From: Kribbella capetownensis
GTDB lineage: Bacteria; Actinomycetota; Actinomycetes; Propionibacteriales; Kribbellaceae
Direction: 5' to 3'
NCBI RefSeq assembly: GCF_004331485.1
Contig: NZ_SJKD01000001.1
Location: forward strand, 1 to 64,000
Length of the DNA stretch: 64,000 nt
A program made the position numbers and the translations under genes. This document shows, piece by piece, positions 2,725 to 16,123 of the stretch. Numbering within the stretch: the stretch's first letter is position 1; every line of letters begins with the position of its first letter. Below the pieces are notes generated by a model, which was not told the origin of the DNA, searched no databases, and saw only the letters and a program-made list of their open reading frames with translations.

Positions 2725-3954
2725 ATGAGCCCGCCCGAATCGTTCGCGGTGACAGTCAGGATCGCCAAGCTCCTGCTGGCATCCAGCGGTGAAGGTGTCG
2801 AGATGCTCGAGAAGTACGTCGCGTGCGTCTCAGGAGCGTTCCGGATCGACGTCACACTCCTGGTCCTGCCTGAGCAGGTGCTGCTCGCCTCGCCGGGCGC
2901 TCCAACGGTCGCCGTCGTACGCTCCGCGCCGGGCCTTTCCCGGCTGGACCAGGTGGCCGACCTCAAGGTGCTCGTCGCGGACATCGAGGCGGGACTGGGC
3001 CCGGCGGACGCCCTGCGTCGCGTCGACGAACTTGCCGCCCGCCCGCCACGATGGCCGGCCTGGTTGCGCGTCCTCGGTGTCGTGCTCTTCGCGGCGGGCT
3101 TCGCGCCCAGCGTCGTGGCCACCTGGTCCGAGCTCGCCACGTCGGCGCTGCTAGGTGCCGTCATGGGCGTGCTCATGGTGTTCTTCGAGCACCGCCGCTT
3201 CGAACCGTTGCTGCCGTTCGTCGCGGCGTTCCTCCTGACGGTCCTCGCGGCGACCCTGCTCGACGGGCTGACGTCGGTGTCCGGTGTCGTGCTGGTCGTC
3301 GTACCGGCGCTGTTCGTTGTCGTTCCCGGGGACTACCTGTCCGCGGCCGCCGCCGAGCTGGTGAGCGGGCACCTCAGCGCCGGCGCCGTACGGCTGGTGT
3401 ACGCCGCGTTCGTGCTCGGCATGCTCGTCGTCGGCATCGTCGGTGCCGCCCAGCTGACCGGCCGCGAGCAGGCATTGGCCGAGACGGTCGTGGTGCCCGA
3501 GCTGCCGTTCGTGGTGGTCGTGCTGGCCTGGATACCGTTCTCGTGCGGCCTGGTGCTGGCCTTCAACGGGTACCCGAGCATGGTGCCATGGCTGGTACCG
3601 ACCGTCATCGGCACGTACCTGCTTCAGCAAGGTGTCACCAGGCTGGGAGGCGACGTCACCGGAACGCTCATCGCGGGGATCGCGCTCGGCGCCGTCGCGA
3701 ACCTCCTGTCGGCGCCGAACCACCGGCCACCGCGCCTGCTCCTGCTGGTCGGTGGATTCTTCGTGCTCACTGTCGGCGGGCTCGGGCTCCGTGGCTTCAC
3801 GGCGATGGTCGGTGGGGACGTCATCTCCAGCTTCGACGACCTGCGGGGTTTCCTACTTCAGGTGCCGACAGTGGCGATCGCCATCGCCATCGGGGTACTG
3901 GCTACAGTCCGTCGGTCCGGGCCGACGGTTTCACCCGGCGTACGGCGTCGTTGA
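2725..3954 (+). CDS. Threonine/serine exporter (ThrE) family membrane protein
   Basis: A 409-aa protein of the ThrE family with both halves of the transporter in one chain. A soluble N-terminal part (about residues 1-120, LLLASSGEGVEMLEKYV) is followed by about ten hydrophobic segments from residue 110 to 400. ThrE in Corynebacterium exports threonine and serine using the proton gradient. The length is below some ThrE proteins (about 490 aa) but typical of the fused DUF1212/DUF3815 form. It follows the MFS gene by 22 bp without a strong ribosome binding site. Its stop lies 8 bp from the stop of the convergent gene at 3963. Confidence 0.85.
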   Translation: MSPPESFAVTVRIAKLLLASSGEGVEMLEKYVACVSGAFRIDVTLLVLPEQVLLASPGAPTVAVVRSAPGLSRLDQVADLKVLVADIEAGLGPADALRRVDELAARPPRWPAWLRVLGVVLFAAGFAPSVVATWSELATSALLGAVMGVLMVFFEHRRFEPLLPFVAAFLLTVLAATLLDGLTSVSGVVLVVVPALFVVVPGDYLSAAAAELVSGHLSAGAVRLVYAAFVLGMLVVGIVGAAQLTGREQALAETVVVPELPFVVVVLAWIPFSCGLVLAFNGYPSMVPWLVPTVIGTYLLQQGVTRLGGDVTGTLIAGIALGAVANLLSAPNHRPPRLLLLVGGFFVLTVGGLGLRGFTAMVGGDVISSFDDLRGFLLQVPTVAIAIAIGVLATVRRSGPTVSPGVRRR

Positions 3955-3962
3955 TCTCACCG

Positions 3963-4370
3963 CTAGGCCACCTTGACGATCTTGCATTCAATGCCTGCCG
4001 CTCCGATCGGAGCCTCCGCCGGAGTGGTTCCTCCGAAGGTCGTCGTACCGCGAACCTCGAAGGTCTGACCGCCGATCCTCTGCTGCGAGGTTGCATCCAG
4101 GACCTCGACGGTCACCGAGTAGCTCGTCGCGTCACCTGAAATCGTGCCGTTGATCGTTACCGTGCCCTGCGATCCGACGGTGTTCACCTGGCAGTCGACG
4201 CTGGTCTTGTAACTCTTCAAGGCGCCCCCTCCCACCACACCGGTCAGGTAGAGCACGACGGCAACGCCCATCAACGCCACCAGACCAAAGCCGATGAACA
4301 TCCGAATGCGCCTGGAGCGCGATTGCGAGCCATAGTCATCGTTGGCCAAGGTCCACTCGCTGGTCGGCAT
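3963..4370 (-). CDS. Small single-pass membrane protein, function unknown
   Basis: A 135-aa protein with a polar N-terminus of about 23 residues ending in basic SRSRRIR, one membrane segment at about residues 24-45, and a C-terminal outside domain rich in Thr/Val/Gly. That domain alternates like an immunoglobulin-type or FxLYD-type beta fold (VTINGTISGDATSYSVTVEVLD) and has two cysteines, one near each end, that could form a disulfide. A purine-rich ggggga sits five bases before the ATG. I do not recognise a named family and assign no function. Confidence 0.7.
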   Translation of the reverse strand: MPTSEWTLANDDYGSQSRSRRIRMFIGFGLVALMGVAVVLYLTGVVGGGALKSYKTSVDCQVNTVGSQGTVTINGTISGDATSYSVTVEVLDATSQQRIGGQTFEVRGTTTFGGTTPAEAPIGAAGIECKIVKVA

Positions 4371-4574
4371 CGCTGTCCCCCGTAATCCTGATGCACGCTA
4401 GGCGCCGGTCGGTGTGCCCAGCCGACGAGACAGCCTAGGCAACTGTGAGCCAACCAGGCTGTGATCCGCGTCTCCCGCCGCCAGATTTGTCGTTGCGGAG
4501 GGCCGGGGCCGGGGCTGATACTGCGTCACGGTGCCGGGTGGCCAGCTCGGCGGAGTGGATTGGAGGCGCCGCTC
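4371..4574. other. Gene-free stretch upstream of the attenuated MFS gene
   Basis: Together with the leader at 4575-4693 this is the only gap over 300 bases in the window. It separates two divergent genes, so it should hold both promoters, but I see no clear -35/-10 pair. The right half is G-rich (ccggggccgggg near 4505) and ends in the ribosome binding site ggagg at 4562-4566 of the leader peptide. No credible gene lies on either strand. Confidence 0.5.
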
Positions 4575-4649
4575 GTGAACACCGCATCTGTGCGGTGCGC
4601 CTTGCTGTGCGCGCCAGAAGCTGACCACTTCGCTTCGCCCACCGGCTGA
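4575..4649 (+). CDS. 24-residue leader peptide upstream of the MFS gene
   Basis: A short open frame begins at GTG 4575, nine bases after a strong ggagg at 4562-4566, and ends at TGA 4649, 48 bases before the MFS start at 4697. The peptide opens NTASVRCALLCAPEAD and ends SPTG. Its last codons and stop lie over the left arm of the 9-bp hairpin at 4636-4671. Leader peptides placed like this before actinobacterial and Gram-positive efflux or ribosome-protection genes act as attenuators: a stalled ribosome refolds the RNA. That this one does so is inference from layout. Confidence 0.55.
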   Translation: MNTASVRCALLCAPEADHFASPTG

Positions 4650-4671
4650 CCTGCTTCGTTCACGGTGGGCG
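4580..4671 (+). promoter_or_regulatory. Two hairpins in the MFS leader (candidate attenuator)
   Basis: Hairpin 1 pairs 4580-4586 with 4591-4597 (caccgca / tgcggtg, 4-base loop) inside the leader peptide. Hairpin 2 pairs 4636-4644 with 4663-4671 (cgcccaccg / cggtgggcg, 18-base loop) and spans the leader stop codon. It ends 11 bases before the gggaga ribosome binding site of the MFS gene at 4683-4688. No long U run follows, so control of translation is more likely than termination. Confidence 0.5.
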
Positions 4672-4696
4672 CGTTCCCTCATGGGAGACCACCTTG

Positions 4697-5965
4697 ATGT
4701 ACGAAGACTCCTTCGCCCGTAGTCGCCGCCCGCTGACCACAGTCCTTGCCGCCAACATCGTTTCGATCACCGGGAACTGCCTGACGGGCATCGGCGTGCC
4801 GTGGTTCGTACTGCAGAGCACCGGCAGCGCCACCAAGGCCGGGATCGTCGCGTTCTGCACACTGCTGCCCGTCGTACTCGCCGCGATCGTCGGTGGTCCG
4901 GTCATCGACCGGATCGGGCGCCGGCGGGTGAGTGTCACGTCGGACCTCGTCTGTGGCGCGGCTGTCGCCATGGTCCCGCTGCTTCAGCTCGCCGGGGTAC
5001 TGCAGTTTTGGATGCTCTGTGGGCTGATGGCCGTGACCGGGCTGTTCCACGCTCCTGGCCAGACGGCCCGCGGCGTACTGTTGCCCTCACTCGCGAAACG
5101 TGCTGCGATGCCGCTGACTCGGGCAGCCGGGCTGTACGACGGCGCCTCGCGGTTCGCGGGACTGATCGGCTCGGCACTCGGCGGCATCCTGGTCGCGGTA
5201 CTGGGATCCGAGAACGTCCTGCTGCTGGACGCCGGGACCTACGCGGTGTCCGCGTTCATTCTCTTGTACGGGTTGCGCGACCTACCCGAAGCCGGGCCTC
5301 AGTCGCGCGGCGAGCCGACGTCGCTGCGTGTGTATCGCCGCGAGCTGGGTGAGGGATACCGGTTCGTGGCGGCGACGCCGCTGCTTCTGGGCATCTGCCT
5401 CATGACGCTGGCCACCAGGGGCCTCGACCAGGCGTGGAGCGCCGTACTCCTCCCGGTCCACGCACGCGAAAGGCTCGGCGGCTCAGTCGATCTCGGGTTG
5501 CTGGAGGCATCGTTCGGGATCTGCGCGCTGACGAGCGCGCTGGTCTACGGAGCGGTGGGCAGCCGCTGGCGGCGGTGGCCGGTGTTCACGGTCGCGTTTC
5601 TCATCGTCGGTACGCCGCGCTTCGTCGTGGCTGCCTGCACCGACCACTTCGCGCCGTTGGCCGTGATGATGTCGATCGAGGGCCTCGCCTGCGGTGTGCT
5701 CAACCCCATCATGGCCTCGGTCATGTACGAGACAGTGCCGGAGGAACTGCGCAGCCGGGTGCTCAGCGCAACAACCGCCTCGTTCCTGACGATCACTCCA
5801 CTCGGCGGCCTCGCCGCGGGATTCATGGTCGACTCGGCCGGCCTGTTCACGGCGATGCTGACTGTCGGCGGTGCCTACCTCCTCGCCACACTCTGCCCCG
5901 TCATCTTCCCGACCTGGAGAAAGATGGACCACACAAACACTCCGAAGGCAGCCGTGAGCGCGTGA
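4697..5965 (+). CDS. MFS efflux protein (MFS_3 / macrolide-efflux type)
   Basis: A 422-aa membrane protein with about 12 hydrophobic segments. The loop 2-3 signature is GPVIDRIGRRRVSV near residues 65-78. It resembles the MFS_3/MefA/Tap-like group, which includes macrolide and tetracycline efflux pumps, though the substrate cannot be fixed from sequence. The ATG at 4697 follows gggaga at 4683-4688; a TTG codon just before it would add one residue. The leader peptide and hairpins upstream would suit induction by a ribosome-targeting drug. A hairpin at 5976-6005 follows the stop. Confidence 0.85.
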   Translation: MYEDSFARSRRPLTTVLAANIVSITGNCLTGIGVPWFVLQSTGSATKAGIVAFCTLLPVVLAAIVGGPVIDRIGRRRVSVTSDLVCGAAVAMVPLLQLAGVLQFWMLCGLMAVTGLFHAPGQTARGVLLPSLAKRAAMPLTRAAGLYDGASRFAGLIGSALGGILVAVLGSENVLLLDAGTYAVSAFILLYGLRDLPEAGPQSRGEPTSLRVYRRELGEGYRFVAATPLLLGICLMTLATRGLDQAWSAVLLPVHARERLGGSVDLGLLEASFGICALTSALVYGAVGSRWRRWPVFTVAFLIVGTPRFVVAACTDHFAPLAVMMSIEGLACGVLNPIMASVMYETVPEELRSRVLSATTASFLTITPLGGLAAGFMVDSAGLFTAMLTVGGAYLLATLCPVIFPTWRKMDHTNTPKAAVSA

Positions 5966-5975
5966 CCGATCGCGG

Positions 5976-6005
5976 CCGGCAGAGGTCCCGTGAGATTTCT
6001 GCCGG
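5976..6005 (+). terminator. Hairpin after the MFS gene
   Basis: An 8-bp inverted repeat (ccggcaga at 5976-5983 pairing with tctgccgg at 5998-6005, 14-base loop) lies 10 bases after the MFS stop. There is no U tract, as is common for actinobacterial terminators. It may separate this gene from the YCII-family gene at 6089. Confidence 0.4.
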
Positions 6006-6088
6006 TGGCCTGTCGGATCCACGGTGCGGCGTTCGTTGCACGGGTGACAGGCAGCCGGAGACTGGCCGCCGGGACAAGGAGTCATGAG

Positions 6089-6442
6089 ATGCCGAAGTAC
6101 CTGATCTCGTTCGAGAAGGACGCGATGGACCATATTCCCGAGGAGGACTTCGCTGAGGTGGGCGCGGCCGCCCGCGCGGTGTGCCAGGAGGCCGAGGATG
6201 CCGGCGTGTTCGTCTTCTCCGATGGTCTGAGTTACGACGACGGCGACGTGGAGCACGCCGTGGTGGACGTTGACGCGATGGTCATCGACGGCCCGTACCC
6301 GGAGAGCAAGGAGCTCATCGGTGGCATCTTCATCGTCGACGTACCCACCCGGGAGGCAGCCCTGGAGTGGGCCGCAAAGGTCGCGGTCGCCTGCCGCTGT
6401 GCGCAAGATGTCCGCAAGTTCCGCGGCCCAAACGCCGTCTGA
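6089..6442 (+). CDS. YCII-related (DGPF-type) domain protein
   Basis: A 117-aa protein of the YCII-related family, small dimeric alpha-beta barrel proteins often annotated as DGPF-domain. The signature is VIDGPYPESKELIGGIFIVDV, with the usual DGP(F/Y) plus the acidic segment, followed by REAALEWA. Family members are mostly uncharacterised, and some sit beside ECF sigma factors. I start at ATG 6089, after aggag at 6077-6081; upstream in-frame codons lack family similarity. It stands alone between a transporter and an esterase gene on the same strand. Confidence 0.8.
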   Translation: MPKYLISFEKDAMDHIPEEDFAEVGAAARAVCQEAEDAGVFVFSDGLSYDDGDVEHAVVDVDAMVIDGPYPESKELIGGIFIVDVPTREAALEWAAKVAVACRCAQDVRKFRGPNAV

Positions 6443-6598
6443 TCGAACCGTGGTCGATGGCGGTGGTAGTTGCAGACCGGCCGTCGTCGTCTCGGAGCCG
6501 TTCGATGTCGGCGCCACCCCACGACACGGGGTGGCTGGCGGTCGAGGCGCCGGTGAGCTGGGATTGACCTACGGTGGGACGACGCCGAAGGGAGATGC

Positions 6599-7858
6599 AT
6601 GGCCGACGAGATCAACAGTCCACGTCTGCAGAAGCTTGATCCGGCCGGAACTGAGGAGTTCTGGGCCGACGTCACCGAGCAGGGTGCACCACTGGTGGAG
6701 CCTGTGCTGGATGACGACGACGATGTATGGCTGACATTCCTCTACCGTTCGAGCGAGCCTGTCACCGGCGTCTCGGTGTTCGGCGGCCCAGCAGGATGGG
6801 ATGCGCCAGACAACCAGATGCACCACCTGGACGGCACCGACGTCTGGTACCTGACCTGCCGGGTCCGCGCTGATCTGCGCTGTACCTACCGGCTGGCGGT
6901 CGATGACGTGGACAGTGCTGCGGCCAAGGCGGAGGACTGGCAGGAACGTACGGCGAAGTGGTTCACCGATCCACTCAACCCGGCAACGTTCGTCTATCCC
7001 GCGGACGAATTCCTTGACTCCGACGAGACCGTGGTGTCGTTGATCGAGCTATCGGCCGCGCCTGCTCAGCCGTGGCTCGCGCCACGGCCCGACGTCAAGC
7101 CCGGCGAGCTCGTCCAGCATCTGCACCGGAGCGAGATCCTCGGCAACGAGCGCCGCATCTGGGTCTACACCCCGCACGGCTATCGGCCGAACGACGAACC
7201 GTATCCGTTGCTCGTGCTGTTCGACGGCGACGTCGTACGCGGCCCGATCCCGTTCCCCACGATCCTGGACAACCTCATCGACGACGGCCGCATCCCGCCG
7301 ACGGTGGCCGTCCTCGTCGACAGCCTGACCCAGGAAGTCCGCAACCGGGAACTCCCCTGCGGCAAACCCTTCCTGAAGTACCTGACCGACGAACTGCTGC
7401 CCTGGGCTCGCGAGCAGTACCGGATCACGACCGATCCCGCGCGCACGATCGTGGCGGGTCAGAGCCACGGCGGTCAGGCGGCCGCGTTCGCGGCACTCAA
7501 CCGCCCGGACATCTTCGGCACTGTGATCTCGCAGTCGGGATCGTTCTGGTGGAGCCCCGACGACGACCACGAACACGAGTGGCTGACCCGCCAGTACGCC
7601 GAGACCGAACGACAGCCCGTGCGGCTCTACCTCGAGGTCGGCCTGCAGGAACGCGGTTCAACCCCTGACGACGGCCCCTCCATGGTGGTCGCGAACCGCC
7701 ACTTTCGAACCATCCTGCGCAGCAAGGGCTACGACGTGACGTACACGGAGTACAACGGCGGCCACGACTACGTCTGCTGGCGCGGCTCACTCGCCGACGC
7801 ACTCACCACTGTCACGGCGGGGTCAGTTGCCGGCGTAGCTGATGGACACGGCGGTTGA
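6599..7858 (+). CDS. fes: Enterochelin esterase-like hydrolase (Fes family)
   Basis: A 419-aa cytoplasmic alpha/beta hydrolase of the Fes family, which cleaves ferric catecholate siderophores to release iron. Residues 1-150 match the Fes N-terminal beta domain (VWLTFLYRSSEPVTGVSVFGG). The catalytic half carries the nucleophile elbow GQSHGG with Ser289 and the terminal GGHDYVCWR with His389. An acidic member is probably in the segment before it. No siderophore synthesis or uptake gene is nearby, so it may act on imported xenosiderophores or on another ester. The ATG at 6599 follows gggag. Its 3' end overlaps the convergent lipoprotein gene by 36 bp. Confidence 0.85.
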   Translation: MADEINSPRLQKLDPAGTEEFWADVTEQGAPLVEPVLDDDDDVWLTFLYRSSEPVTGVSVFGGPAGWDAPDNQMHHLDGTDVWYLTCRVRADLRCTYRLAVDDVDSAAAKAEDWQERTAKWFTDPLNPATFVYPADEFLDSDETVVSLIELSAAPAQPWLAPRPDVKPGELVQHLHRSEILGNERRIWVYTPHGYRPNDEPYPLLVLFDGDVVRGPIPFPTILDNLIDDGRIPPTVAVLVDSLTQEVRNRELPCGKPFLKYLTDELLPWAREQYRITTDPARTIVAGQSHGGQAAAFAALNRPDIFGTVISQSGSFWWSPDDDHEHEWLTRQYAETERQPVRLYLEVGLQERGSTPDDGPSMVVANRHFRTILRSKGYDVTYTEYNGGHDYVCWRGSLADALTTVTAGSVAGVADGHGG

Positions 7859-8239
7859 GCTGCTGCTGATCTTGCCGCTGTCGACTTTCTTGCCGCTGAC
7901 AACCAGTACGACGGAGAGGCCGTCGGCGCCCTTGGTCTTGTGCAGGTTGACGGTGTAGGAACCGTTCGAGGCCTTGACCTGGAACGTGGCGGATCCACAG
8001 CCCTTCTTGCTCGTCGCGCCGATCCGGCCCGCCCAGCAGGTCTTCTTCGACGCCGTGATCCGGACGGTGGCACCCGACTGCGTGCTGGTCTTCCCCTTCC
8101 CCTTCCCCTTCGCACTCCCGCTCCCGCTGCTGCTGCCACCGGTGCTGGTGCCGGGCGTGGTCTTGATCGGTTCGCAGCCGGTCAGCACCAGCGGGACCAC
8201 AAGTGCGACCGCGAGGGCGGTCCATCGGCGGGCAGACAT
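7823..8239 (-). CDS. Small exported lipoprotein, last gene of the peptide/M50 operon
   Basis: A 138-aa protein with a lipoprotein signal (VPLVLTGC, lipid-anchored Cys22) followed by a flexible Gly/Ser/Lys linker (repeats of KGKG at about residues 45-50). The C-terminal beta-rich domain of about 85 residues contains two more cysteines that could pair. The order signal, linker, small beta domain suggests a tethered module outside the membrane. The gene starts 13 bp after the CxxC-repeat protein, with ggagg seven bases before the ATG, so it is very likely cotranscribed. No recognised family. The 3' end overlaps fes. Confidence 0.75.
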   Translation of the reverse strand: MSARRWTALAVALVVPLVLTGCEPIKTTPGTSTGGSSSGSGSAKGKGKGKTSTQSGATVRITASKKTCWAGRIGATSKKGCGSATFQVKASNGSYTVNLHKTKGADGLSVVLVVSGKKVDSGKISSSSTAVSISYAGN

Positions 8240-8252
8240 CGGGGGCCTCCGG

Positions 8253-8927
8253 TCATCCGGTTTTGACGGTCAGTTGTGGCTTCAGGCTGGTCGGCTTCAG
8301 CTCCTTGCGAACCAGCGCTTCGATATCGGCAAGCCCACCGCTGTTCTTCGTCGCGGTGAGGCGCGCCGCCTTGCTGCCGGTCGAAAGCTGGGCCTCGAGT
8401 TCTCGCGCCATCGCCTCGAGCTGTTGCCGGCCGTGCCGCGAGAACGCGCGGTGCTTGCTGGTGACAACGACGATCTGCACCGCGACGGCCGAGGTCGTGC
8501 AGCCGGAACAGGCCGCGTTGACCGCGAAGGCACGGTTTCGAGCCGTGACCGTCGCACCGGGACGGACCACGACAACCTGCACGGACACGCTGGTCGCTCG
8601 GCAGTTGCTGCAACTCGACCAGGCGTTCGCGACGTTGTCCGCCGTACGCTTCTTGGCCTTGTTCACGTAGATGACCTGCACTGCCGAAGCGCTGGCGCTG
8701 CACGAGTCGCAGGTCGCCGTTGCGGTGGCCACGGCATCTGCCTGGGCTCGCTTGCCGCGGGCACGTTCGAACATGGCGGTCCGGTCGGTGTCCGAGCTGC
8801 CGGCCGTCGCAGGGTTGGCGGACGCGACCAGGTCGAAGTCCTGGCCGCTGCGGAACGTGAGGACGCTCGCGCCCATGACGAGGGACGCAACGACGGTGAT
8901 CGCTTGGAGTCGCCGGCTGAGGTTCAT
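8253..8927 (-). CDS. Exported CxxC-repeat protein
   Basis: A 224-aa protein with an N-terminal hydrophobic signal or anchor (about residues 9-25), then three repeats of 33-34 residues centred on CDSC (73-76), CSNC (106-109) and CSGC (140-143). Each CxxC is followed eight residues after its second Cys by Gln (84, 117, 151) within an alternating hydrophobic strand such as SVSVQVVVV or AVAVQIVVV. The tail (about 160-224) is helical and charged. The repeats share this frame with the two small peptides upstream in the operon. The ATG overlaps the M50-MinD stop (ATGA), so translation is coupled. CxxC pairs outside the cell could form disulfides or bind metal. Function unknown. Confidence 0.75.
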   Translation of the reverse strand: MNLSRRLQAITVVASLVMGASVLTFRSGQDFDLVASANPATAGSSDTDRTAMFERARGKRAQADAVATATATCDSCSASASAVQVIYVNKAKKRTADNVANAWSSCSNCRATSVSVQVVVVRPGATVTARNRAFAVNAACSGCTTSAVAVQIVVVTSKHRAFSRHGRQQLEAMARELEAQLSTGSKAARLTATKNSGGLADIEALVRKELKPTSLKPQLTVKTG

Positions 8928-11233
8928 GAGGCTCCTTCGCCTGTCAGGGACGGATCAACCACCGACACGGGACTCCAGCGGTTCGTGGTGAAGCCGCCGG
9001 CGACCAGTTCGGCCAGTTCCAGGTACGCATCGCGGGTTGCGGAGCGCAAGTCGTCGAGGCCGACCGCTGCTCCGCTGTCCAGCGCCGGGTCCCACGGGAT
9101 GCGGACCGTCCCGGCGCAGCGACTGTTGAAGTGGTTCTCGATCTCGTCGAGCTGGAGCCAGCGCGGCTTGCCTCTGGTCGTGTTGATCACGGCCACCGCG
9201 GACGACACCAGGTCGGCGTGCCCGTGCTGGTCCAGCCAGTCCAGCGTCCCGGCCGCGACCCGGGCGCCGTCGAGTGCCGGTGGCATCACGACGACGATCT
9301 GGTCAGCCTCCCGCAGGATGCCCTGAATGGCGCCGTCCAGGATGCCGGTGCCGGTATCGACCAGGATCAGGTTGTAGTGCTGGGTGAGCAGGTCGAGCAC
9401 GGCGCGGTAGTCCCGGTCGCCGAGCGCCTGGCTGATGGTCGGGTCGTCATCGGACGCGATCACCTCGAGCCGGCTCGGTGCCTGCGAGGTGTACTCGCGC
9501 AGATCGGCGTACTTCGTGATCAGATCGCGCTCGCCCAGGAGGTTGGTCACCGTGGCCGGGGACTCCCGGCGGACCCGGTAGATGAGCGAGCCGGCGTCAG
9601 GGTTCGCGTCGAGCGCGACCACTCGGTCGCCTCGGTGCATCGCGAGCGTGTGACCCAGCATCAGCGTAGTCGTGGTCTTTCCAGCCCCGCCCTTGCGGCT
9701 CAAGGTGACCACTCTGCGCGGGCCGCGCAGCGCCGTACGGACCCGGTCGATCCGCTCCAGCTCGCGCTGCTCGGCGAGGCTGGGCCCGACGTTGATCCGG
9801 CCACTCGAGACGAAGTACAGGCTGTGCCGCCATCCGTTCCGGGGTGGCGTCACCCGCCGGCGGAGCATCTTGTCCTCGGTGAACAGGGCAGCACCGGTCG
9901 CGCCGCTGATGTGGTCCATCGGTTCCTCCTCGGCCGGCGACGGCGGGGTCTGCCGGGTTCGAACCGCGCGTACGACGTGCAGCAGGGATCGGACGAGTAC
10001 GACGCTCAGCCCGACGATCGGGAGCGCGATCGCCAGCAGAGACAGCAGCGCGAGCGTCGCTGCGCCGATCTGCCCTGCCGCGACGAGTGTTCGTACGCCG
10101 GCCCACAACTCACTCGAGCGATCCCAGAACCCGGCGAGGTAGCCAGGGGCGTTCCAGGTCAGGAGGCCCAGACCGATGAGCAGGGCGGGGACGGTGACCA
10201 GCACCCAGGTCGTGACCACGATCCGGGTACGGAACCGCAGCGTCGCCACCCCGGCATCGTTGCGGCGACCCGGCAGAAGGCTCACCAGAATGGGCCGGAC
10301 ATGCCCGAAGAGATTCGGTACGCCGGCCAGGTCGCCGAGAATGTAGTACCCGTCGAACCGGACCACCGGCAGCAGTTGCTGGATGATCTCCAGGTGGGAC
10401 AGCGCGATCACCGCGAGCAGGGGCGCCCATCCGGTCCACAGGTACATCCCGGCCGCGACCACGATGTAGACCGCGTTGAAGTAGACGCCGCCCAGATCGG
10501 TCCGGAGCCGGCCGGCCCGGTTGAGCCGGTAGGCGCTGGTCACGTTCGTGTAGAACGCAGGGATCCAGAGGTAGAGCCCGACGCCGATCTGTCCGGGCTT
10601 GGCGCCGCCGTACCGGCAGCCGGCCGCGTGACCGAACTCGTGGAAGAGCGTGGCCAGTAGCAACAAGATCAGGACGGCCAGCACCCCGGCCGGATCGACC
10701 AGGGCGGCGAAGACGTCCGAGGCCGCCAGGGTGGTCAGCACCCAGACGTCGAAGGCGATCACGGCCGCCAGGACCGTGAAGATCACGGGCCGGTGGAACA
10801 ACGGTGCGAAGATCCGTGCGATCGTGCGGACCGCACCGGGCGGCAGCAGCACGCCGCGCACGCTCAACGCGAGCAGGGGATCCGCCTTCTCCTGTCCCAC
10901 CGGGGCGCCGTTCCAGAGCGCGACCAGGCCGGACGGACCGAGCTTGTCGTTGATCAGGCGGACCAGATCGTCGGAATCGAGACGCTGACCGTACGCGCGG
11001 CTCACCCGCTGCGCCAGCAGATCGGTCGACGAGCGTCCGTCGGCGTTGTCCACGATCAGGTAGAGCAGCTTGGTCAGCAGAACCATCTGCCGGTCGGCGC
11101 GTTCGACCAGATAGCGCTCGTCCCGGAACCCGGACCCCTCGTACCGCCCGAGCAGGCGTACGCCGCCGACCCGGCTCGGCCTGGGTCCGCCGCGCACCGG
11201 GACCGCGCGGAGGTGGTCTTCTGTCGTTGTCAC
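8924..11233 (-). CDS. M50-family membrane metalloprotease fused to MinD/ParA-like ATPase
   Basis: A 769-aa protein. Residues about 25-110 look like a PqqD-type winged-helix domain (YLVERADRQMVLL, then SRAYGQRLDSDDLVRLI). Residues about 135-420 hold several membrane segments with the M50 zinc site HEFGH (198-202) and the third-ligand region FDGYY (D294), as in putative peptide zinc metalloproteases. After a Pro/Glu linker, residues about 505-750 form a MinD/ParA ATPase with deviant Walker A KGGAGKTT (K514, K519) and VDTGTGILD. The ATPase half resembles MinD-like proteins of actinobacterial type VII secretion loci, but no ESX gene is near. GTG start; a G6 tract at 11245-11250 could be the ribosome site. 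It probably processes or moves the upstream peptides (inference). Confidence 0.85.
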   Translation of the reverse strand: MTTTEDHLRAVPVRGGPRPSRVGGVRLLGRYEGSGFRDERYLVERADRQMVLLTKLLYLIVDNADGRSSTDLLAQRVSRAYGQRLDSDDLVRLINDKLGPSGLVALWNGAPVGQEKADPLLALSVRGVLLPPGAVRTIARIFAPLFHRPVIFTVLAAVIAFDVWVLTTLAASDVFAALVDPAGVLAVLILLLLATLFHEFGHAAGCRYGGAKPGQIGVGLYLWIPAFYTNVTSAYRLNRAGRLRTDLGGVYFNAVYIVVAAGMYLWTGWAPLLAVIALSHLEIIQQLLPVVRFDGYYILGDLAGVPNLFGHVRPILVSLLPGRRNDAGVATLRFRTRIVVTTWVLVTVPALLIGLGLLTWNAPGYLAGFWDRSSELWAGVRTLVAAGQIGAATLALLSLLAIALPIVGLSVVLVRSLLHVVRAVRTRQTPPSPAEEEPMDHISGATGAALFTEDKMLRRRVTPPRNGWRHSLYFVSSGRINVGPSLAEQRELERIDRVRTALRGPRRVVTLSRKGGAGKTTTTLMLGHTLAMHRGDRVVALDANPDAGSLIYRVRRESPATVTNLLGERDLITKYADLREYTSQAPSRLEVIASDDDPTISQALGDRDYRAVLDLLTQHYNLILVDTGTGILDGAIQGILREADQIVVVMPPALDGARVAAGTLDWLDQHGHADLVSSAVAVINTTRGKPRWLQLDEIENHFNSRCAGTVRIPWDPALDSGAAVGLDDLRSATRDAYLELAELVAGGFTTNRWSPVSVVDPSLTGEGAS

Positions 11234-11244
11234 GATGCGGTTGT

Positions 11245-11273
11245 CCCCCCAGTGCGGGGGGCGCAGGCCCCCC
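11245..11273 (-). promoter_or_regulatory. Mutually exclusive G/C-tract hairpins before the M50-MinD start
   Basis: In transcript order the 63-base gap between peptide A and the protease holds a G6 tract (11268-11273), a C6 tract (11256-11261) and a second G6 tract (11245-11250). The first G6 plus C pairs with the C6 as a 7-bp stem with a CTGC loop. Alternatively the C6 pairs with the second G6, which is the only purine-rich site before the protease GTG at 11233 (11-base spacer). This would set a low protease-to-peptide ratio by partial termination or by hiding the ribosome site. Function is inferred. Confidence 0.5.
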
Positions 11274-11296
11274 GCCAGTTCCGTGCGCCGAAGAAG

Positions 11297-11494
11297 CTAA
11301 CGCTGGAACGCAGCCAGGTGCTGCAGTGCGGCGGCCGTGGCGGTCGAGCCGATCGTCCCCGCATTCACCGCGATCGCCAGGTTGACGGCCGTGATGTTGG
11401 TGATGTTGATCAGTGCCAGTGCCTCGCGCATGGGCAGCAGCTCGGCCGACTGGCCGGCGACGTCCGTACCCGAGATCCTGCCGAGATCCGTCAT
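11297..11494 (-). CDS. Small peptide A (paralogue of peptide B), candidate precursor or structural peptide
   Basis: A 65-aa peptide without cysteine. The N-terminal 20 residues are polar (GTDVAGQSAELL), followed by LPMREAL and then an Asn/Ala/Thr/Ile-rich segment. Asn sits at 30, 33, 38 and 44, and TIGS (47-50) is followed eight residues later by Gln58. It aligns without gaps to peptide B (offset two residues): LPxREAL, NxxNITAxNxAxAxNA and the S-x7-Q frame all match. The same frame recurs in the CxxC protein downstream. ggggg lies five bases before the ATG. The pattern could be a leader-core precursor for the M50 protease or an assembling beta peptide; I cannot choose from sequence. Confidence 0.7.
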   Translation of the reverse strand: MTDLGRISGTDVAGQSAELLPMREALALINITNITAVNLAIAVNAGTIGSTATAAALQHLAAFQR

Positions 11495-11566
11495 CGAAAC
11501 CCCCTCGTTCCCGCGGCGTGCGGACGGCGCACTGGGTCAACGCCGCCCGCACACCCGATTCGGCGG

Positions 11567-11758
11567 CTAGTGCTGGTGGACGAAAATCGTCTGCACAGCC
11601 ACGGCCTTCGCCGCTGAGAAGTGCGATGCTGCGTTGAGCGCCAGCGCCGTGTTGTTCGCCGTGATGTTCGCAAAGTTGAATGAACCCAGCGCCTCACGTT
11701 CGGGGAGAACCTGGACTTCTTCCAGGTCGAGCTCCACCGTTGTCACCTTCTCGTTCAT
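11567..11758 (-). CDS. Small peptide B (paralogue of peptide A), first gene of the operon
   Basis: A 63-aa peptide with an acidic N-terminal part (VELDLEEVQVLPEREAL) typical of RiPP leader regions, then an Asn/Ala-rich core (Asn at 28, 31, 35, 36, 42), SHFS (45-48), and AVAVQTIFV with Gln56 eight residues after Ser48. That last stretch matches repeat 3 of the exported CxxC protein (AVAVQIVVV), with Ser in place of both Cys. No Cys and few Ser/Thr argue against a lanthipeptide. The ribosome site ggaggggg precedes ATG 11758, the strongest in the operon, suggesting the peptide is made in excess. It lies first behind the SARP-type repeats. Confidence 0.7.
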   Translation of the reverse strand: MNEKVTTVELDLEEVQVLPEREALGSFNFANITANNTALALNAASHFSAAKAVAVQTIFVHQH

Positions 11759-11822
11759 GAGTCACCCCCTCCGCCCTTGTCGGTGCTCACAGCCAGTGGA
11801 TGCCTGTTGGCATCCTCAGGGT

Positions 11823-11862
11823 GTTGTCACAGCGTTGTCCCGGCGTTGTCACAGCGTTGTCA
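11823..11862. promoter_or_regulatory. Four 11-bp direct repeats (SARP-type binding site)
   Basis: GTTGTC occurs at 11823, 11834, 11845 and 11856, exactly 11 bp apart, with heptamers GTTGTCA, GTTGTCC, GTTGTCA and GTTGTCA. Heptamers repeated every 11 bp, one helical turn, are the hallmark of SARP-family regulator sites. A SARP gene lies 500 bp to the right. The site sits in the 225-bp gap between peptide B (leftward) and the 75-aa gene at 11984 (rightward), so it could activate either or both. The matching -10 element is not obvious. Confidence 0.7.
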
Positions 11863-11983
11863 GAAGACGGTGGTCGACGTAACGGCGTACTTCGGGGATC
11901 GTTGGGCTCATCGTGAGTCTCCCCGTGGCCCGAGCCCGAACGACGCCAGGCAGCCGGCCGGATGACTCCCGGGGGAGTGGATC

Positions 11984-12211
11984 ATGACCGATCACGCGCA
12001 GTCCGAGCCCGTGCCCGACGCGGCGGCACTGGTCATCCGGGTCTGGCGGGAACCGACCGATTTGGCCGGCATCAAGGCGCGCATCACCCGGCGGCCCGAT
12101 CTGGGCGCCGACGCCGAGACGACCGCTGTAGTGACCTCACCGGACGCCGTCTACAGCGAGGTCCGCGCCTGGCTCGAAGAGTTCGTCAACCGAACGGGCG
12201 GCCAGTCTTGA
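11984..12211 (+). CDS. 75-residue acidic protein of unknown function
   Basis: A 75-aa soluble protein with no signal or membrane segment. It opens with a flexible acidic end, then a beta-alpha pattern (ALVIRVWREP, GIKARITRR, AETTAVVTS), and ends with the helix VYSEVRAWLEEFVNRT. A gggggag lies seven bases before the ATG, so it is very likely expressed. It sits between the SARP-type repeats and the SARP gene and is divergent from the peptide operon, which suggests membership of that system, perhaps as an accessory or immunity-like factor (inference). I do not recognise a family. Confidence 0.65.
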   Translation: MTDHAQSEPVPDAAALVIRVWREPTDLAGIKARITRRPDLGADAETTAVVTSPDAVYSEVRAWLEEFVNRTGGQS

Positions 12212-12236
12212 CATCCGGCCATTCCTGTCCCATGTT
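12208..12236 (+). promoter_or_regulatory. Candidate promoter for the SARP gene
   Basis: TTGACA at 12208-12213, a 17-base spacer and CATGTT at 12231-12236 give a good vegetative-type -35 with a weak -10. Transcription would begin near 12243 and leave a leader of about 118 bases before the SARP start at 12361. It overlaps the stop of the 75-aa gene. Confidence 0.45.
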
Positions 12237-12360
12237 TCAGAGAGTGCGTGGCAATTGGTGGTTCAGCCGTCACGCACAGCGGGGACATCTGCGAGCAACA
12301 CAGCCGGGGGGCAGGCTCGACTGACGCGCGCCGTCGCATCCCCGAGGGGGAGGCCGTGCG

Positions 12361-13140
12361 GTGCGGACGTTCTTAGAGAGCGAATTTCGACTTCAGTTGC
12401 TCGGCGACTGGCTCCTGACCGTTGCCGACGAGCCGGCCGACGCGGCCGAACCGATCGATCTGCCGGCCGGTCCGCAGCACCTCATCGCGCTGCTGGCCCT
12501 CAACGGCCGCTGCGCACGGACCCACACGGCGGCGACGCTCTGGCCGGACTGCACCGACGAGGTCGCGGCCGCCCGTCTTCGCGCGGTTCTGTGGCGGCTG
12601 CGGCACCGGCATGTCGGCGTACCGCCCGTACTCGAGATCGGCGACTCCTCGCTGTCGCTGGCGGTCGACGTCGATGTGGACGTCGACCGTTTGCTTGACT
12701 GCGCCGAGCTGCTGATCCGCGACCACCCCGACCGCGGCACCGACGAGGCCGAAGACGCCGCTCTCGTCGTACTGCACTCCTCGGAACTTCTCCCCGGGTG
12801 GTACGACGACTGGGTGCTGGCCGCCCGCGAACGACTGCAGTACCTGCGGCTGGGCGCGCTCGACGCCCTCGCAACTAGGCGCCGACGGCAACGACGTACG
12901 CACGAAGCGCTCCAGGCCGCGCGGGCCGCGATCAGCATCGAACCGCTGCACGAGAGCGCGCACCGCACGATCGTCGAGACCCACTTGGACAATGGCGATC
13001 TCGTTGAGGCGATCAACCATTACCAACGATTCCAGGAGATGCTCGGCCGCGAACTGGGACTCCCACCCAGCGACCTGTTCCGCGAGGTCGTGAGCCCCTA
13101 CCTGGCCGTTGCCTCTCGCAAGGTGGCCCGAACTCGCTGA
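12361..13140 (+). CDS. SARP-family transcriptional activator (BTAD domain)
   Basis: A 259-aa protein of the Streptomyces antibiotic regulatory protein type. It has an OmpR-like winged helix at residues 5-95 (FRLQLLGDWLL, then LPAGPQHLIALLALNGR and AARLRAVLWRLRHR) and a bacterial transcriptional activation domain at about 100-245 (GWYDDWVLAARERLQYL, ending INHYQRFQEMLGRELGLPPS). It has no NB-ARC or TPR extension, so it is a small SARP. SARPs bind heptamer repeats 11 bp apart, and four such repeats lie upstream of the peptide operon at 11823-11862, the likely target. GTG start, placed where the winged helix begins. Its stop is 13 bp from the convergent LLM gene. Confidence 0.9.
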   Translation: MRTFLESEFRLQLLGDWLLTVADEPADAAEPIDLPAGPQHLIALLALNGRCARTHTAATLWPDCTDEVAAARLRAVLWRLRHRHVGVPPVLEIGDSSLSLAVDVDVDVDRLLDCAELLIRDHPDRGTDEAEDAALVVLHSSELLPGWYDDWVLAARERLQYLRLGALDALATRRRRQRRTHEALQAARAAISIEPLHESAHRTIVETHLDNGDLVEAINHYQRFQEMLGRELGLPPSDLFREVVSPYLAVASRKVARTR

Positions 13141-13153
13141 ACCCGGTCGGCCT

Positions 13154-14023
13154 TCAGGTCAGGCCGGTTGCGGCGGCGGTCAGGTTGATCTGGTGGGGGT
13201 CGGGGTTGGCGGGGAACAGGATCAGCTCGTCGCAGCCTGCGGCGGTGAAGCCGGTGACGGCGTCGGCGACTGCTTGTTCGGTGGTCAGGGCGTTGCCGAT
13301 GATCCGCTCGGCGTACGGGCCGGCGAAGCTGTAGTAGTCGCCGAGGTAGCGCCGCGCGTGCTCCTCGGCGTCGTCGCCGAGACTCACGTAGCCGATGGCG
13401 ACCAGGCGCGGCTGTCCTTCACGTCCCGCCTCGCGCCAGGCGCTCCTGGCCGTGTCGGCTGCGGCCGCGAAGGCGTCCGGACCGCCGGCGCCGAGGATCC
13501 AGCCGGCGCCGTACTCCGTCATCCGGCGGAAGGCGGCGGGAGAGCCACCACCGATGAGCAGCGGCGGGCCGCCTGGTTGCACCGGGGCCGGCCCGATCGC
13601 ACCGGCGTACCCGCGCGGCTCACCGGCCCACACCGCCCGCATCTCCGCGAGTTGCGCGTCGAACGCCTTGCCACGCTTCTCGTACGGCGATGCCGTCGCC
13701 TCGAAGTCGTCCGGCCTCGCTCCGACCGCGATGCCGACCGTCAACCGGCCGTCGGACAGACGATCCACGGTGGCCAGTTGCTTGGCCAGCAAGGCGCCGT
13801 TGCCACGGAACGGGCCGATCATGATGGCCGTCGTCAGACCGATCCGGCTGGTCACCGCCGCCGCGGCGGCCAGCGCCGGTATCGCGTCCAGATTCCCGTA
13901 CACGAGCCGGTCGAGCGTCGCCAGGGTGGAGAACCCGGCCTGCTCGGCGGCCTGCGCCCAATCCAGGATCAGTCGAGCGCGAATTCCCGGAATCGTGGAC
14001 GGCAGACCGACACCAACATCCAT
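13154..14023 (-). CDS. LLM-class flavin/F420-dependent oxidoreductase
   Basis: A 289-aa TIM-barrel oxidoreductase of the luciferase-like monooxygenase superfamily. Supporting segments are DWAQAAEQAGFSTLATLDRL (strand 1), LAAAAAVTSRIGLTTAI, LLAKQLATVDRLSDGRLTVGIAVGARPDDFEA and the late IGYVSLGDDAEEHARRYLGDYY. In actinobacteria this subgroup often uses coenzyme F420, but the cofactor and substrate are not certain here. The ATG at 14023 follows aaggag. It is divergent from the exported peptidase gene, with about 100 bases between them. Confidence 0.85.
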   Translation of the reverse strand: MDVGVGLPSTIPGIRARLILDWAQAAEQAGFSTLATLDRLVYGNLDAIPALAAAAAVTSRIGLTTAIMIGPFRGNGALLAKQLATVDRLSDGRLTVGIAVGARPDDFEATASPYEKRGKAFDAQLAEMRAVWAGEPRGYAGAIGPAPVQPGGPPLLIGGGSPAAFRRMTEYGAGWILGAGGPDAFAAAADTARSAWREAGREGQPRLVAIGYVSLGDDAEEHARRYLGDYYSFAGPYAERIIGNALTTEQAVADAVTGFTAAGCDELILFPANPDPHQINLTAAATGLT

Positions 14024-14126
14024 GAGAGCTCCTTGGTTGAAATGTTCGCGACCTCACCAGACTGCACCGTCGTCTTGACTCTGTCTTGGGTGGCGAGGAG
14101 GGTCGACAGCAGGGGTGGGGATTCCA

Positions 14127-15596
14127 ATGGATATCCGACGAATTCGCAAAGTACTGGCCGTCCTGGGTTCCGGGTTGCTGGTGTCGACGACATTCGTGTC
14201 GGCGGCACAGTCCGATACTGCGACCTCGCCGTACCACATCAACTTCGCGCCTTGTCCGGGATCGGCTGTGGTCCGGTGCGGCACGTTGCGCGTGCCCGCG
14301 GACTGGTCGGCCCCGAGGGGTCCGAAGATCACTGTGGCGGTGGCTCGCCGTCCCGCGGACGACCCTGCGCACCGGATCGGCACGCTGTTCTACAACCCCG
14401 GTGGTCCGGGCGACGGCGCGGTCGACAACGTCATCGCCGCCGAGACCTACTTCTCCGCGACGTTGCGGGCTCGGTTCGACATCGTCGGCCTCGATCCGAG
14501 AGGCGTCGGTGGCAGTACGCCGATCCGCTGCGGCGTACCGGCGCTGACCCCTGACTACGCGTTCTTCCCACGCACGCAAGCAGAGTTCGACGCGATGGTC
14601 GCGCACAATCGCGCGCTCGCGCGGAGCTGCCTGCAGCAGACCGGACCGCTGTTCGTGCACGCGGACACCGTGAGCGTGGCCCGCGACCACGAGGCGGTCC
14701 GGATCGCCCTGGGCGTCTCGAAGGTGAACTGGCTCGGGCTGTCCTACGGCACGCAGGTCGGAGCGCAGTACGCCCAACTGTTCCCGAAGCACACCCGAGC
14801 AATGGTTCTGGACGCGGCTCTCGACCACAGCAGCCCGGACGTACAACTGATCGCCGATGCGGCCAAGACCGTGGAGGAGGCGTTCGAGCGGTTCGCCGAC
14901 TGGTGTGACACCGCTCCCGACTGCGTCCTGCGGGGTCAAGACGTCCGTGCGGTGTACGACAACCTCGTCCGGAGCGCCGACCGGAATCCGATCCCGGTCG
15001 AAGGAGCCCTGCGCCCCGTCACCGGCGACGACATCCGGATGAACACCCCGAACTGGCTCGTCGCGAAGACACCCAACGTCCTCGCGGGAGAGCTGTCCTG
15101 GCCCGTCTTCTCGGAGGTCCTCAGGCGGGCCGTCGCCGGGGACGCGCAGTTCTTCGCCTTCCCGCCGCCCGGAGGTCCGACCGACTTCCTGTTCTCCCGG
15201 ATAGCAAATCACTGCGGTGACTACGTGTCCGGCATCCACACCTTCGCGGAGATGCGGCAGCGCGTCGAGATGGGCCGGCAGTTGGCGCCGCACCTGCAAG
15301 GCGCCTCGGAGTTCTGGCAGGGCGGCCTGTGCATCGGCTACCCCTTCAAGGTCGCCAACCCCCAGCGCAGCCTGAACGTGAAGGGCGTGCCCACCCTCAT
15401 CGTCCACGCGACCCACGACCCGTCCGTCTCCTACCAGTGGGCGTTCGGCCTGGCCGCCCAGATCCACGGCAGCAGCGTCCTCTCCCGCCTCGGCGACGGC
15501 CACACCTCCTACTACACCTCCGCCTGCGCCCGCGAAGCGACGGACCACTTCCTCCTCACCAAACAGTCCACCCCAGCCCCGGTCTGCACCACCTAG
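14127..15596 (+). CDS. Secreted alpha/beta hydrolase of the tripeptidyl aminopeptidase type
   Basis: A 489-aa exported serine hydrolase. It has an N-terminal signal peptide (VLAVLGSGLLVSTTFVSAAQS), an oxyanion region FYNPGGPGDGAVDN, the nucleophile elbow GLSYGTQVG near residue 210, and a TAP-like C-terminal domain with VHATHDPSVSY and GDGHTSYY, which supplies the acid and His. Relatives (SlpD/SlpE, tripeptidyl aminopeptidase) trim peptides outside the cell. No lipobox is evident, so it is probably secreted. I choose ATG 14127 because gggg precedes it at the right distance; a GTG at 14115 would add four residues. Confidence 0.85.
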   Translation: MDIRRIRKVLAVLGSGLLVSTTFVSAAQSDTATSPYHINFAPCPGSAVVRCGTLRVPADWSAPRGPKITVAVARRPADDPAHRIGTLFYNPGGPGDGAVDNVIAAETYFSATLRARFDIVGLDPRGVGGSTPIRCGVPALTPDYAFFPRTQAEFDAMVAHNRALARSCLQQTGPLFVHADTVSVARDHEAVRIALGVSKVNWLGLSYGTQVGAQYAQLFPKHTRAMVLDAALDHSSPDVQLIADAAKTVEEAFERFADWCDTAPDCVLRGQDVRAVYDNLVRSADRNPIPVEGALRPVTGDDIRMNTPNWLVAKTPNVLAGELSWPVFSEVLRRAVAGDAQFFAFPPPGGPTDFLFSRIANHCGDYVSGIHTFAEMRQRVEMGRQLAPHLQGASEFWQGGLCIGYPFKVANPQRSLNVKGVPTLIVHATHDPSVSYQWAFGLAAQIHGSSVLSRLGDGHTSYYTSACAREATDHFLLTKQSTPAPVCTT

Positions 15597-15599
15597 GGC

Positions 15600-16061
15600 T
15601 TAGTCCAGGCAGAATTCGTTGCCTTCTGGGTCGGTCATGGTGATGGTGCCGAGAGCCAGGGGCGGTTGGGGGTCGAAGCGGCGTACTCGGTGGGCTCCCA
15701 GGGCGACCAGGCGGGCGCACTCGGCCTCGAGGGCTGCCATGCGTTCGTCGCCTTCGAGGCCGGGAGCTGCTCGGACGTCGAGGTGGACTCTGTTCTTGGC
15801 GGCCTTGTCCTCGGGCACCTGCTGGAAGAACAGCCGTGGGCCGTTTTCGTCCGGGTCTTCGAGGGCCGAGCGGGTGTTGCGCTGATCCTCCGGTACGCCG
15901 ACGCGCTCGAGGAACTCGTCCCACGCCGCCAGCGGGTCGGCGCCCTCGGGCAGTTCGACACCAGGCGGCCCGGGGTGAACGTAGCCCAGTACGTCGCGCC
16001 AGAAGTACGACAGCGCCCGCGGGTCGTGCGCGTCGAAGGTGACCTGGAATTCGCGGCTCAT
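15600..16061 (-). CDS. VOC-family (glyoxalase-like) protein
   Basis: A 153-aa protein of the vicinal-oxygen-chelate/glyoxalase-like domain type, with the opening FQVTFDAHDPRALSYFWRDVLGY, the middle RLFFQQVPEDKAAKNRVHLDV and the closing TMTDPEGNEFCLD. The HLDV and the final Glu are the usual metal-site positions, though many homologues are binding proteins without known reaction. ATG 16061 is preferred because ggag lies seven bases before it; an upstream in-frame ATG adds 12 residues. Its stop lies four bases from the convergent peptidase stop. Confidence 0.8.
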   Translation of the reverse strand: MSREFQVTFDAHDPRALSYFWRDVLGYVHPGPPGVELPEGADPLAAWDEFLERVGVPEDQRNTRSALEDPDENGPRLFFQQVPEDKAAKNRVHLDVRAAPGLEGDERMAALEAECARLVALGAHRVRRFDPQPPLALGTITMTDPEGNEFCLD

Positions 16062-16123
16062 CGCCATACTCCATCCGTCGCGGTTCTCATGTCCCACTCT
16101 GACGCCGCGGGCGCCCGGACCTG

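Follow-up and report, generated by a model that had tools for sequence, protein, structure and literature searches.

The pepA operon and its products

We analyzed the first 64,000 nucleotides (the window) of contig NZ_SJKD01000001.1 of Kribbella capetownensis, in which a row of five leftward genes lies divergent to the gene of a small SARP-type activator. Read from the activator side, all on the minus strand, these are pepA (11567..11758), pepB (11297..11494), a gene for a fusion of an M50 site-2 protease to a ParA/MinD ATPase (8924..11233), a gene for a CxxC-repeat protein (8253..8927) and a lipoprotein gene (7823..8239). All reading frames are open at these coordinates. With start and stop codons counted as parts of the genes, pepA and pepB are separated by 72 bp, pepB and the protease gene by 63 bp, and the M50-ParA gene shares 4 bp with the CxxC gene. 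The peptides encoded by pepA (63 aa) and pepB (65 aa) carry the leader motifs VLPEREAL and LLPMREAL, respectively, and each has one repeat-like core, as judged from the reading frames, an alignment and the CxxC-unit profile described below. Opposite them, on the plus strand, are a 75-aa gene to which no role is assigned (11984..12211) and the SARP gene (12361..13140). The original prediction had described the five leftward genes, the 4-bp overlap, the facing 75-aa gene and SARP and a set of 11-bp repeats between them, and all of these are present; it had missed that both peptides, in their C-terminal halves, fit the CxxC protein's repeat.

Domain searches divided the fusion protein into three parts, all with approximate bounds. 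The N-terminal part (about residues 22-110; 10904..11170, minus strand) is a probable PqqD-like domain, related to the RRE, the recognition element of ribosomally synthesized and post-translationally modified peptides (RiPPs): Pfam PqqD matched it in two of ten members of the protease family (E up to 10; best 3.3e-4). The central M50 domain (9974..10906, minus strand) retains HExxH (residues 198-202) and the distal RFDG (292-295). It matched the NCBIfam daptide metalloprotease NF041824 with an E-value of 9.6e-27 and 94.1 bits, which is below the curated cut-off of 300; the alignment begins at residue 42 and so takes in the N-terminal domain. The C-terminal ParA/MinD part (8954..9739, minus strand) matched AAA_31 (E 7.3e-9; 36.2 bits, cut-off 27) and the MinD chain 1hyq (E 2.8e-5) and has the deviant Walker A motif KGGAGKT. 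Searches of the PDB with the sequence profiles of the CxxC protein, the peptides, the N-terminal domain and the M50 domain gave no convincing match, the best for the M50 profile being the site-2 protease MJ0392 (E 0.53).

Hydropathy, calculated with our own script and read with the positive-inside rule, placed the ParA domain inside the cell and the CxxC domain that is fused to the protease in some relatives outside. The CxxC protein of the window is predicted to be exported or membrane-anchored and contains three CxxC repeats resembling the peptide cores (reading frame, repeat profile and hydropathy). Its signal/anchor segment, together with the topology of the fused relatives, backs the earlier proposal that it forms an outer part, and we place it outside the membrane on these grounds. 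A Pfam match of this protein to zf-C4pol (E 0.0025, below the cut-off) was taken as a chance effect of the CxxC spacing. The lipoprotein was recognized from its reading frame, comparison of loci and, by eye, an LTGC lipobox. The two peptides, the 75-aa protein and the lipoprotein matched no Pfam or NCBIfam family above the cut-off.

Beyond the operon, an esterase gene (6599-7858; Esterase and Enterochelin_N domains) converges on the lipoprotein gene, whose end it overlaps by 36 bp (7823-7858), and a gene for a transporter of the MFS family lies at 4694-5965. A luciferase-like monooxygenase gene (13154-14023) follows the SARP gene; one was found in two of the seven loci with a ParA fusion described below, in a clustering that did not include loci L072 and L076.

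Conservation and regulation of the ParA loci

When 38 genomes of the genus Kribbella were searched, that of K. capetownensis included, seven matched: four have the M50-ParA protein and three a relative with 39-40% identity over the protease. The closest named relative is Kribbella pittospori, whose M50-ParA protein is 98% identical, and a search of genome contigs with the window protein returned two Kribbella relatives and one match confined to the ParA part. The block is kept in three other Kribbella genomes, in two of which the flanking genes differ. All four Kribbella loci hold pepA, pepB, the protease, the CxxC protein, the lipoprotein and the SARP. Three further M50-ParA fusions were found in other genera (genomes G045, G213 and G173), each with two leader peptides and a CxxC protein. 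pepA is conserved in the four Kribbella loci and is the first of the two peptides in the other three, and the SARP faces the peptides in seven of seven. Homologues of the fusion lacking the peptides or the CxxC protein, which the original prediction had named as counter-examples, were not found among these loci. All seven carry pepA, pepB, the CxxC protein and the SARP, and the comparison shows the set to be a real unit.

The two remaining genes behave differently. By tblastn (E 0.1) the lipoprotein is present in four of four Kribbella loci and in none of the three others; a 38-residue match in L072 (E 0.021) sits elsewhere in the locus and was not counted. Its inclusion in the system was thus not borne out, and it is accessory at most. 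The 75-aa gene, found in three of the four Kribbella loci and none of the other three at the same threshold, was considered as a component and dropped. One reading frame in L068 (4603-4938) is somewhat like the 75-aa protein, by eye only.

The SARP has a BTAD domain (E 2.9e-13; 50.9 bits, cut-off 22.1) and, by eye, a winged helix; Pfam finds BTAD in the SARPs of L016, L072 and L076 as well. A tblastn search with the window SARP detected the six other ParA loci at E 6e-31 or better, with 39-40% identity outside Kribbella. A SARP is expected to have direct repeats with a period of 11 bp in front of the gene it controls, and such repeats are found here: four GACAAC copies lie upstream of pepA (11823..11861, minus strand) and are its probable SARP operator. 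Only 2 of 300 mononucleotide shuffles of the window region gave three or more copies. A three-copy pattern allowing up to two mismatches matched this place alone in the 8.83 Mb genome (as two overlapping matches), and a reversed control pattern matched once. Repeats of the GACAAC type, in 3 to 7 copies, precede pepA in each of the four Kribbella loci; those of the window and of K. pittospori are near copies of one another. L072 and L076 have three copies of a different hexamer with the same 11-bp period, and none was found upstream of the peptides in L068. Across loci, three or more copies arose in 1 to 13 of 300 such shuffles. Because of the type of repeat, its uniqueness and the divergent layout we infer that the SARP controls the operon through these repeats.

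Folding and alignment predict a stem-loop between pepA and pepB (11511..11558, minus strand, approximate bounds). It was obtained in all five loci folded, with z from -2.9 to -3.9. A second putative stem-loop, between pepB and the protease gene (11254..11275, minus strand), is weak in the window, its z being -1.4 relative to shuffles.

The wider protease family and a repeat probably shared by peptides and CxxC proteins

We then looked beyond the ParA fusions. A profile of the CxxC domain found 38 of 394 genomes of the window's class, in 20 of 138 genera (E up to 1e-4). The PqqD-M50 profile found 58 of the same 394 (E up to 1e-40), and all 38 CxxC genomes are among them. The protease scores fall into two groups, the upper comprising 46 loci that score at least 479 bits (39 found in the class searches, six in the Kribbella genus search and one on a plasmid; the window is not counted). 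Within 6 kb of the protease, 43 of the 46 have a CxxC domain, and the contigs of two of the other three end 301 and 0 bp past the match. By script, 41 of the 46 have a gene carrying the leader motif, LPx[RK]E, upstream of the protease, as do three more in which a filter had removed it; the last two have just 115 and 43 bp of upstream DNA. As a background, a looser form of the motif occurs anywhere in 249 of 5682 reading frames of like size. In a sample of the whole phylum the protease was present in 25 of 396 genomes, 19 of them outside the window's class. From the 28 matches of this sample 18 loci were fetched; the protease gene was called in 15 of them, and the profile detected a leader peptide in 13 of the 15. 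The copy on a Streptomyces plasmid has its peptide, protease and CxxC protein each annotated as 'hypothetical protein'.

Genes called within 7 kb of the protease (960 genes in 77 loci; six of 83 loci were dropped as no protease gene was called) were clustered. The commonest neighbour families are leader peptides, with 52 loci and a second group of 11, and separate CxxC proteins, with 23 loci and 26 more in which the domain is fused. Next comes an ABC-type ATPase in eight of 77 loci, and every other family is in six or fewer; the set therefore includes neither a tailoring enzyme nor an exporter. The earlier statement that the locus holds no modification enzyme or exporter is confirmed in this sense, neither being a steady neighbour in the clustered loci. 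A leader peptide was detected by profile in 66 of the 77, and several of the other 11 have a motif peptide which the profile or the gene caller had missed (for example L019 and L103).

Three architectures can be told apart on a tree of 83 protease rows; it is a quick tree with long branches, the careful search of which was not finished. In the first (27 rows) the protease is fused to the CxxC domain and accompanied by one long two-block repeat protein with the same leader; these fusions form one branch, save one contig-cut fragment. In the second (18 rows) the CxxC protein is separate, with between one and three short peptides next to it. The third (seven rows), to which the window belongs, has two peptides and a free-standing CxxC protein next to the ParA fusion and is consistent with one origin. 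The remaining 31 rows have no CxxC call, in some since the contig ends. The occurrence of protease and CxxC domain as one polypeptide suggests that the two act together. ParA is an add-on of one branch, and the narrow five-gene system first proposed gives way to a core of protease and leader peptides, often with a CxxC domain.

Several other features were seen in these loci. In a second protease clade (L095, L096, L097, L098-L106, L109, L110) other cores, Asn/Ser-rich or with conserved Cys, follow an ELLPxR-type leader, and there is no CxxC protein. Six Streptomyces-like loci (L085, L087, L088, L089, L090, L111) have a small helix-turn-helix neighbour, mostly opposite the peptides where Kribbella has the SARP; the one member of this neighbour family that was scanned is HTH_3. 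An extra lipoprotein-like gene that matched no Pfam family adjoins the CxxC gene in L073 (7047-7838) and also in L074, L075, L078 and L141. In one Kribbella, a fused protease-CxxC locus has gas-vesicle-like genes (by eye; L018:150-4703) a few kb upstream. A phage contig from IMG/VR (L112:5527-7497) encodes a leader peptide with the motif TLLPARQTLG and a repeat-like core together with a PqqD-M50-type protease. The pair is located shortly downstream of a major head protein gene (3929-5050; phrog_2522, E 1.2e-93), and the protease found no match among phage records.

An alignment of 23 peptides has invariant L, P, R and E in the leader and invariant A, N, A and Q in the core. To compare the cores with the CxxC repeat we built a position profile from 78 CxxC units of 41 proteins, with both Cys columns omitted. 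In this profile 42 of 43 peptides fit one ungapped register, with N0, A4, N6, Ser at 9 and 12, A18, Q20 and Q26 as typical residues. Position 9, the first Cys of the exported protein, is Ser or Thr in 42 peptides; at position 12, the second Cys, 33 peptides have Ser and nine have Ala. When each peptide was shuffled 500 times, five or fewer shuffles did as well for 27 of the 43. Peptide core and CxxC repeat are likely to be homologous, although this falls short of proof.

Proposed function and alternatives

What the comparison establishes is a conserved genetic unit of wide spread, with a common leader motif and domain content, a register shared by peptides and CxxC proteins, and repeats upstream of pepA. 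Our preferred reading, which we regard as about evenly balanced between right and wrong, is that the operon represents one branch of an actinobacterial peptide-maturation system, in which leaders are cut, cores assemble with their CxxC homologue, and ParA positions or drives the process. The SARP would bind the 11-bp repeats and activate pepA together with the downstream genes. The peptides may be kept in excess over the protease by the stem-loop that follows pepA and perhaps also by the one following pepB. The PqqD/RRE-like domain would read LPx[RK]E, and the site-2 protease would cut off the leader at the membrane. Leader reading and cutting are suggested by the domain content, the conservation of the motif and the co-occurrence of the genes. 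Reading of the leader is the most likely of these steps, given the PqqD and NF041824 matches and the removal of daptide leaders by a site-2 protease with a fused RRE (PMC10036551). Of the earlier claim that the protease trims or handles the peptides, handling is well backed, by inference from the PqqD-like domain, the leader motif and the co-occurrence. Once cut off, the cores, each consisting of a single beta-arch-like repeat with Asn, Ala and Gln at regular intervals, might be exported from the cytosol and form an assembly with the CxxC protein on the outside. The CxxC protein, which would have the same repeat but Cys in place of the Ser that most peptides carry at the arch, could serve as an anchored template or cap. 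In the ParA branch, in which the outer CxxC domain is a separate protein, the protease is instead fused to a cytosolic ParA, which would determine the position of the complex or power it.

A number of results speak against this proposal. The N-terminal domain of the window's own protease matched no Pfam family, and its profile found no RRE in the PDB. AlphaFold models were poor for both the M50-ParA protein (mean pLDDT 42.7, from a 4-row alignment) and the CxxC protein (51.5, from a 3-row alignment), and Foldseek with the CxxC model returned nothing at E 0.001. In the CxxC-unit profile 16 of the 43 peptides are not clearly better than their shuffles; the peptides are related to one another, as are the CxxC units, so that these are not independent observations. 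A profile-profile comparison of peptides and CxxC proteins gave the same register, weakly (E 0.0028, probability 11%). Many loci had been fetched through their CxxC domain, which biases the count of loci, and the count by genome (38 of 38) is therefore the fairer measure. In the lower-score clade of proteases, of whose 22 matches 16 loci were read, 14 of these loci hold leader peptides and not one holds a CxxC domain; the core can therefore do without the CxxC protein. Exporters do not recur steadily beside the protease in the 77 loci; the window has the MFS gene at 4694-5965, and in L072 and L076 ABC-type genes converge on the CxxC gene. As to the stem-loops, the one after pepB exceeds shuffles in only some loci (z -0.4 to -4.2). 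The one between pepA and pepB has slight covariation in the four-sequence Kribbella alignment, with a slightly unfavourable covariation term: 3 of 17 pairs have a double change and several are broken in one sequence.

Comparison of the window with K. pittospori (L015:6043-6234 for pepA) revealed a local peak of divergence. In 100-bp bins it is 12, 23 and 15% over 11501-11800 and 0 to 13.3% elsewhere, the peak lying mostly inside pepA. The dS of pepA is 0.70; that of the other genes is 0.11 (M50-ParA), 0.17 (CxxC), 0.19 (lipoprotein), 0.20 (SARP) and 0.02 (pepB). Compared with three relatives, the dN/dS of pepA is 0.07-0.20 in the leader and 0.39-0.53 in the core. It looks as if pepA alone was replaced by an allele from another lineage, a signal seen in one strain pair. 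Such an exchange could be explained if the peptides were secreted, bacteriocin-like antagonists or kin-recognition signals, freed in active form by the protease, with the CxxC protein as a decoy protecting the producer from outside. SARP control, the phage contig with a peptide-protease pair shortly behind a head protein gene, and the maturation of daptides by RRE-site-2 proteases (PMC10036551) would all agree with this. No partner gene varies along with pepA, however (the CxxC protein is 94.6% and pepB 98.5% identical between the two strains), the 77 loci have no steady exporter or potential immunity gene, and with one strain pair the exchange may be neutral. We consider the antagonist explanation unlikely, if the best of the alternatives.

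The PqqD-like domain, the site-2 protease and the leader/core layout are RiPP features (PMC10036551), and the locus could be a RiPP cluster with its tailoring enzyme elsewhere in the genome and the CxxC protein as a carrier or redox partner. Daptides are among the closest known comparisons. PMC10036551 describes for MpaP/DapP (NF041824) the same fusion of an RRE to a site-2 protease, present here in so far as the PqqD matches in two of ten relatives and the NF041824 alignment identify the RRE part, and several short precursors with a conserved leader motif per locus. In contrast to daptides, the protease scores 94.1 bits against the cut-off of 300, and the leader is LPx[RK]E rather than ELExMEAP, with varying C termini in place of an invariant C-terminal Thr. 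No decarboxylase, aminotransferase or methyltransferase was found among 13 window proteins searched with Pfam (4694-16097) or as a steady neighbour in the 77 loci; an ABC transporter, too, is absent from the scanned window proteins and from the steady neighbours, and the passages of PMC10036551 consulted mention neither a CxxC protein nor ParA. As the cut-off score, the precursor features and the three enzyme genes of daptides are lacking, the locus is not filed as a daptide; its core layout is a variant of RRE-site-2-protease peptide maturation.

The epipeptide protease LiaK/YydH (NF058609), whose family is found in the context of small precursors, is likewise of the M50 type; it differs in score (41.1 bits, cut-off 225), and no radical SAM protein is among the window proteins scanned. 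In TMcins a membrane-embedded protease of the site-2 clan, TmcP, removes the leader, as here proposed. TMcins differ (PMC13252029) in a precursor with a transmembrane helix, a protease of the DUF3267 family and a locus that encodes a DsbA-like protein, an escort protein and an ABC transporter. Against the RiPP-cluster explanation it also counts that, besides peptides and CxxC proteins, no gene family is near the protease in more than eight of the 77 loci, and that none of nine window proteins scanned is a known RiPP tailoring enzyme, though the luciferase-like monooxygenase lies at 13154-14023. We judge this explanation improbable. Site-2 proteases commonly act in signalling, and on this general ground the peptides might be small regulators or baits in a circuit of regulated proteolysis in which the protease cleaves another membrane protein, the least probable of the three explanations in our view since cores that otherwise differ are found next to the protease with one common leader motif, which suggests that the peptides are its substrates.

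For the preferred reading, maturation followed by assembly outside the cell, there is a functional analogy in curli, in which a small repeat subunit, CsgA, is paired with a homologous anchored protein, CsgB, and the repeats have an alternating Asn/Ala/Gln pattern. Membership of the curli family was rejected: Curlin_rpt gave no match in the window proteins at E 1, nor in ten relatives at a threshold of E 10, and the repeat spacing differs by eye from that of curli. The likeness in residue pattern and in the pairing of subunit and anchored homologue is kept as an analogy of working only.

Taken further, and more tentatively than the maturation system itself, it is possible that such loci build surface structures throughout the phylum: site-2 proteolysis guided by the leader would supply single-arch peptides to a filament or coat that assembles itself, nucleated by a Cys-locked homologue, with a ParA motor, cytosolic and fused to the protease, in one branch and the main subunit swapped between strains as a variable surface allele. 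The set was not found described in the open-licence literature searched. It places the known RRE-site-2 protease machinery beside structural-looking peptides and an exported protein that apparently has their repeat, a combination spread over many actinobacterial genera both within the window's class and beyond it. If the peptides are antagonists, they would represent a large unmined peptide family, for which LPx[RK]E beside PqqD-M50 offers a search handle. If they assemble, this would be a new route for building surface structures in Gram-positive bacteria.

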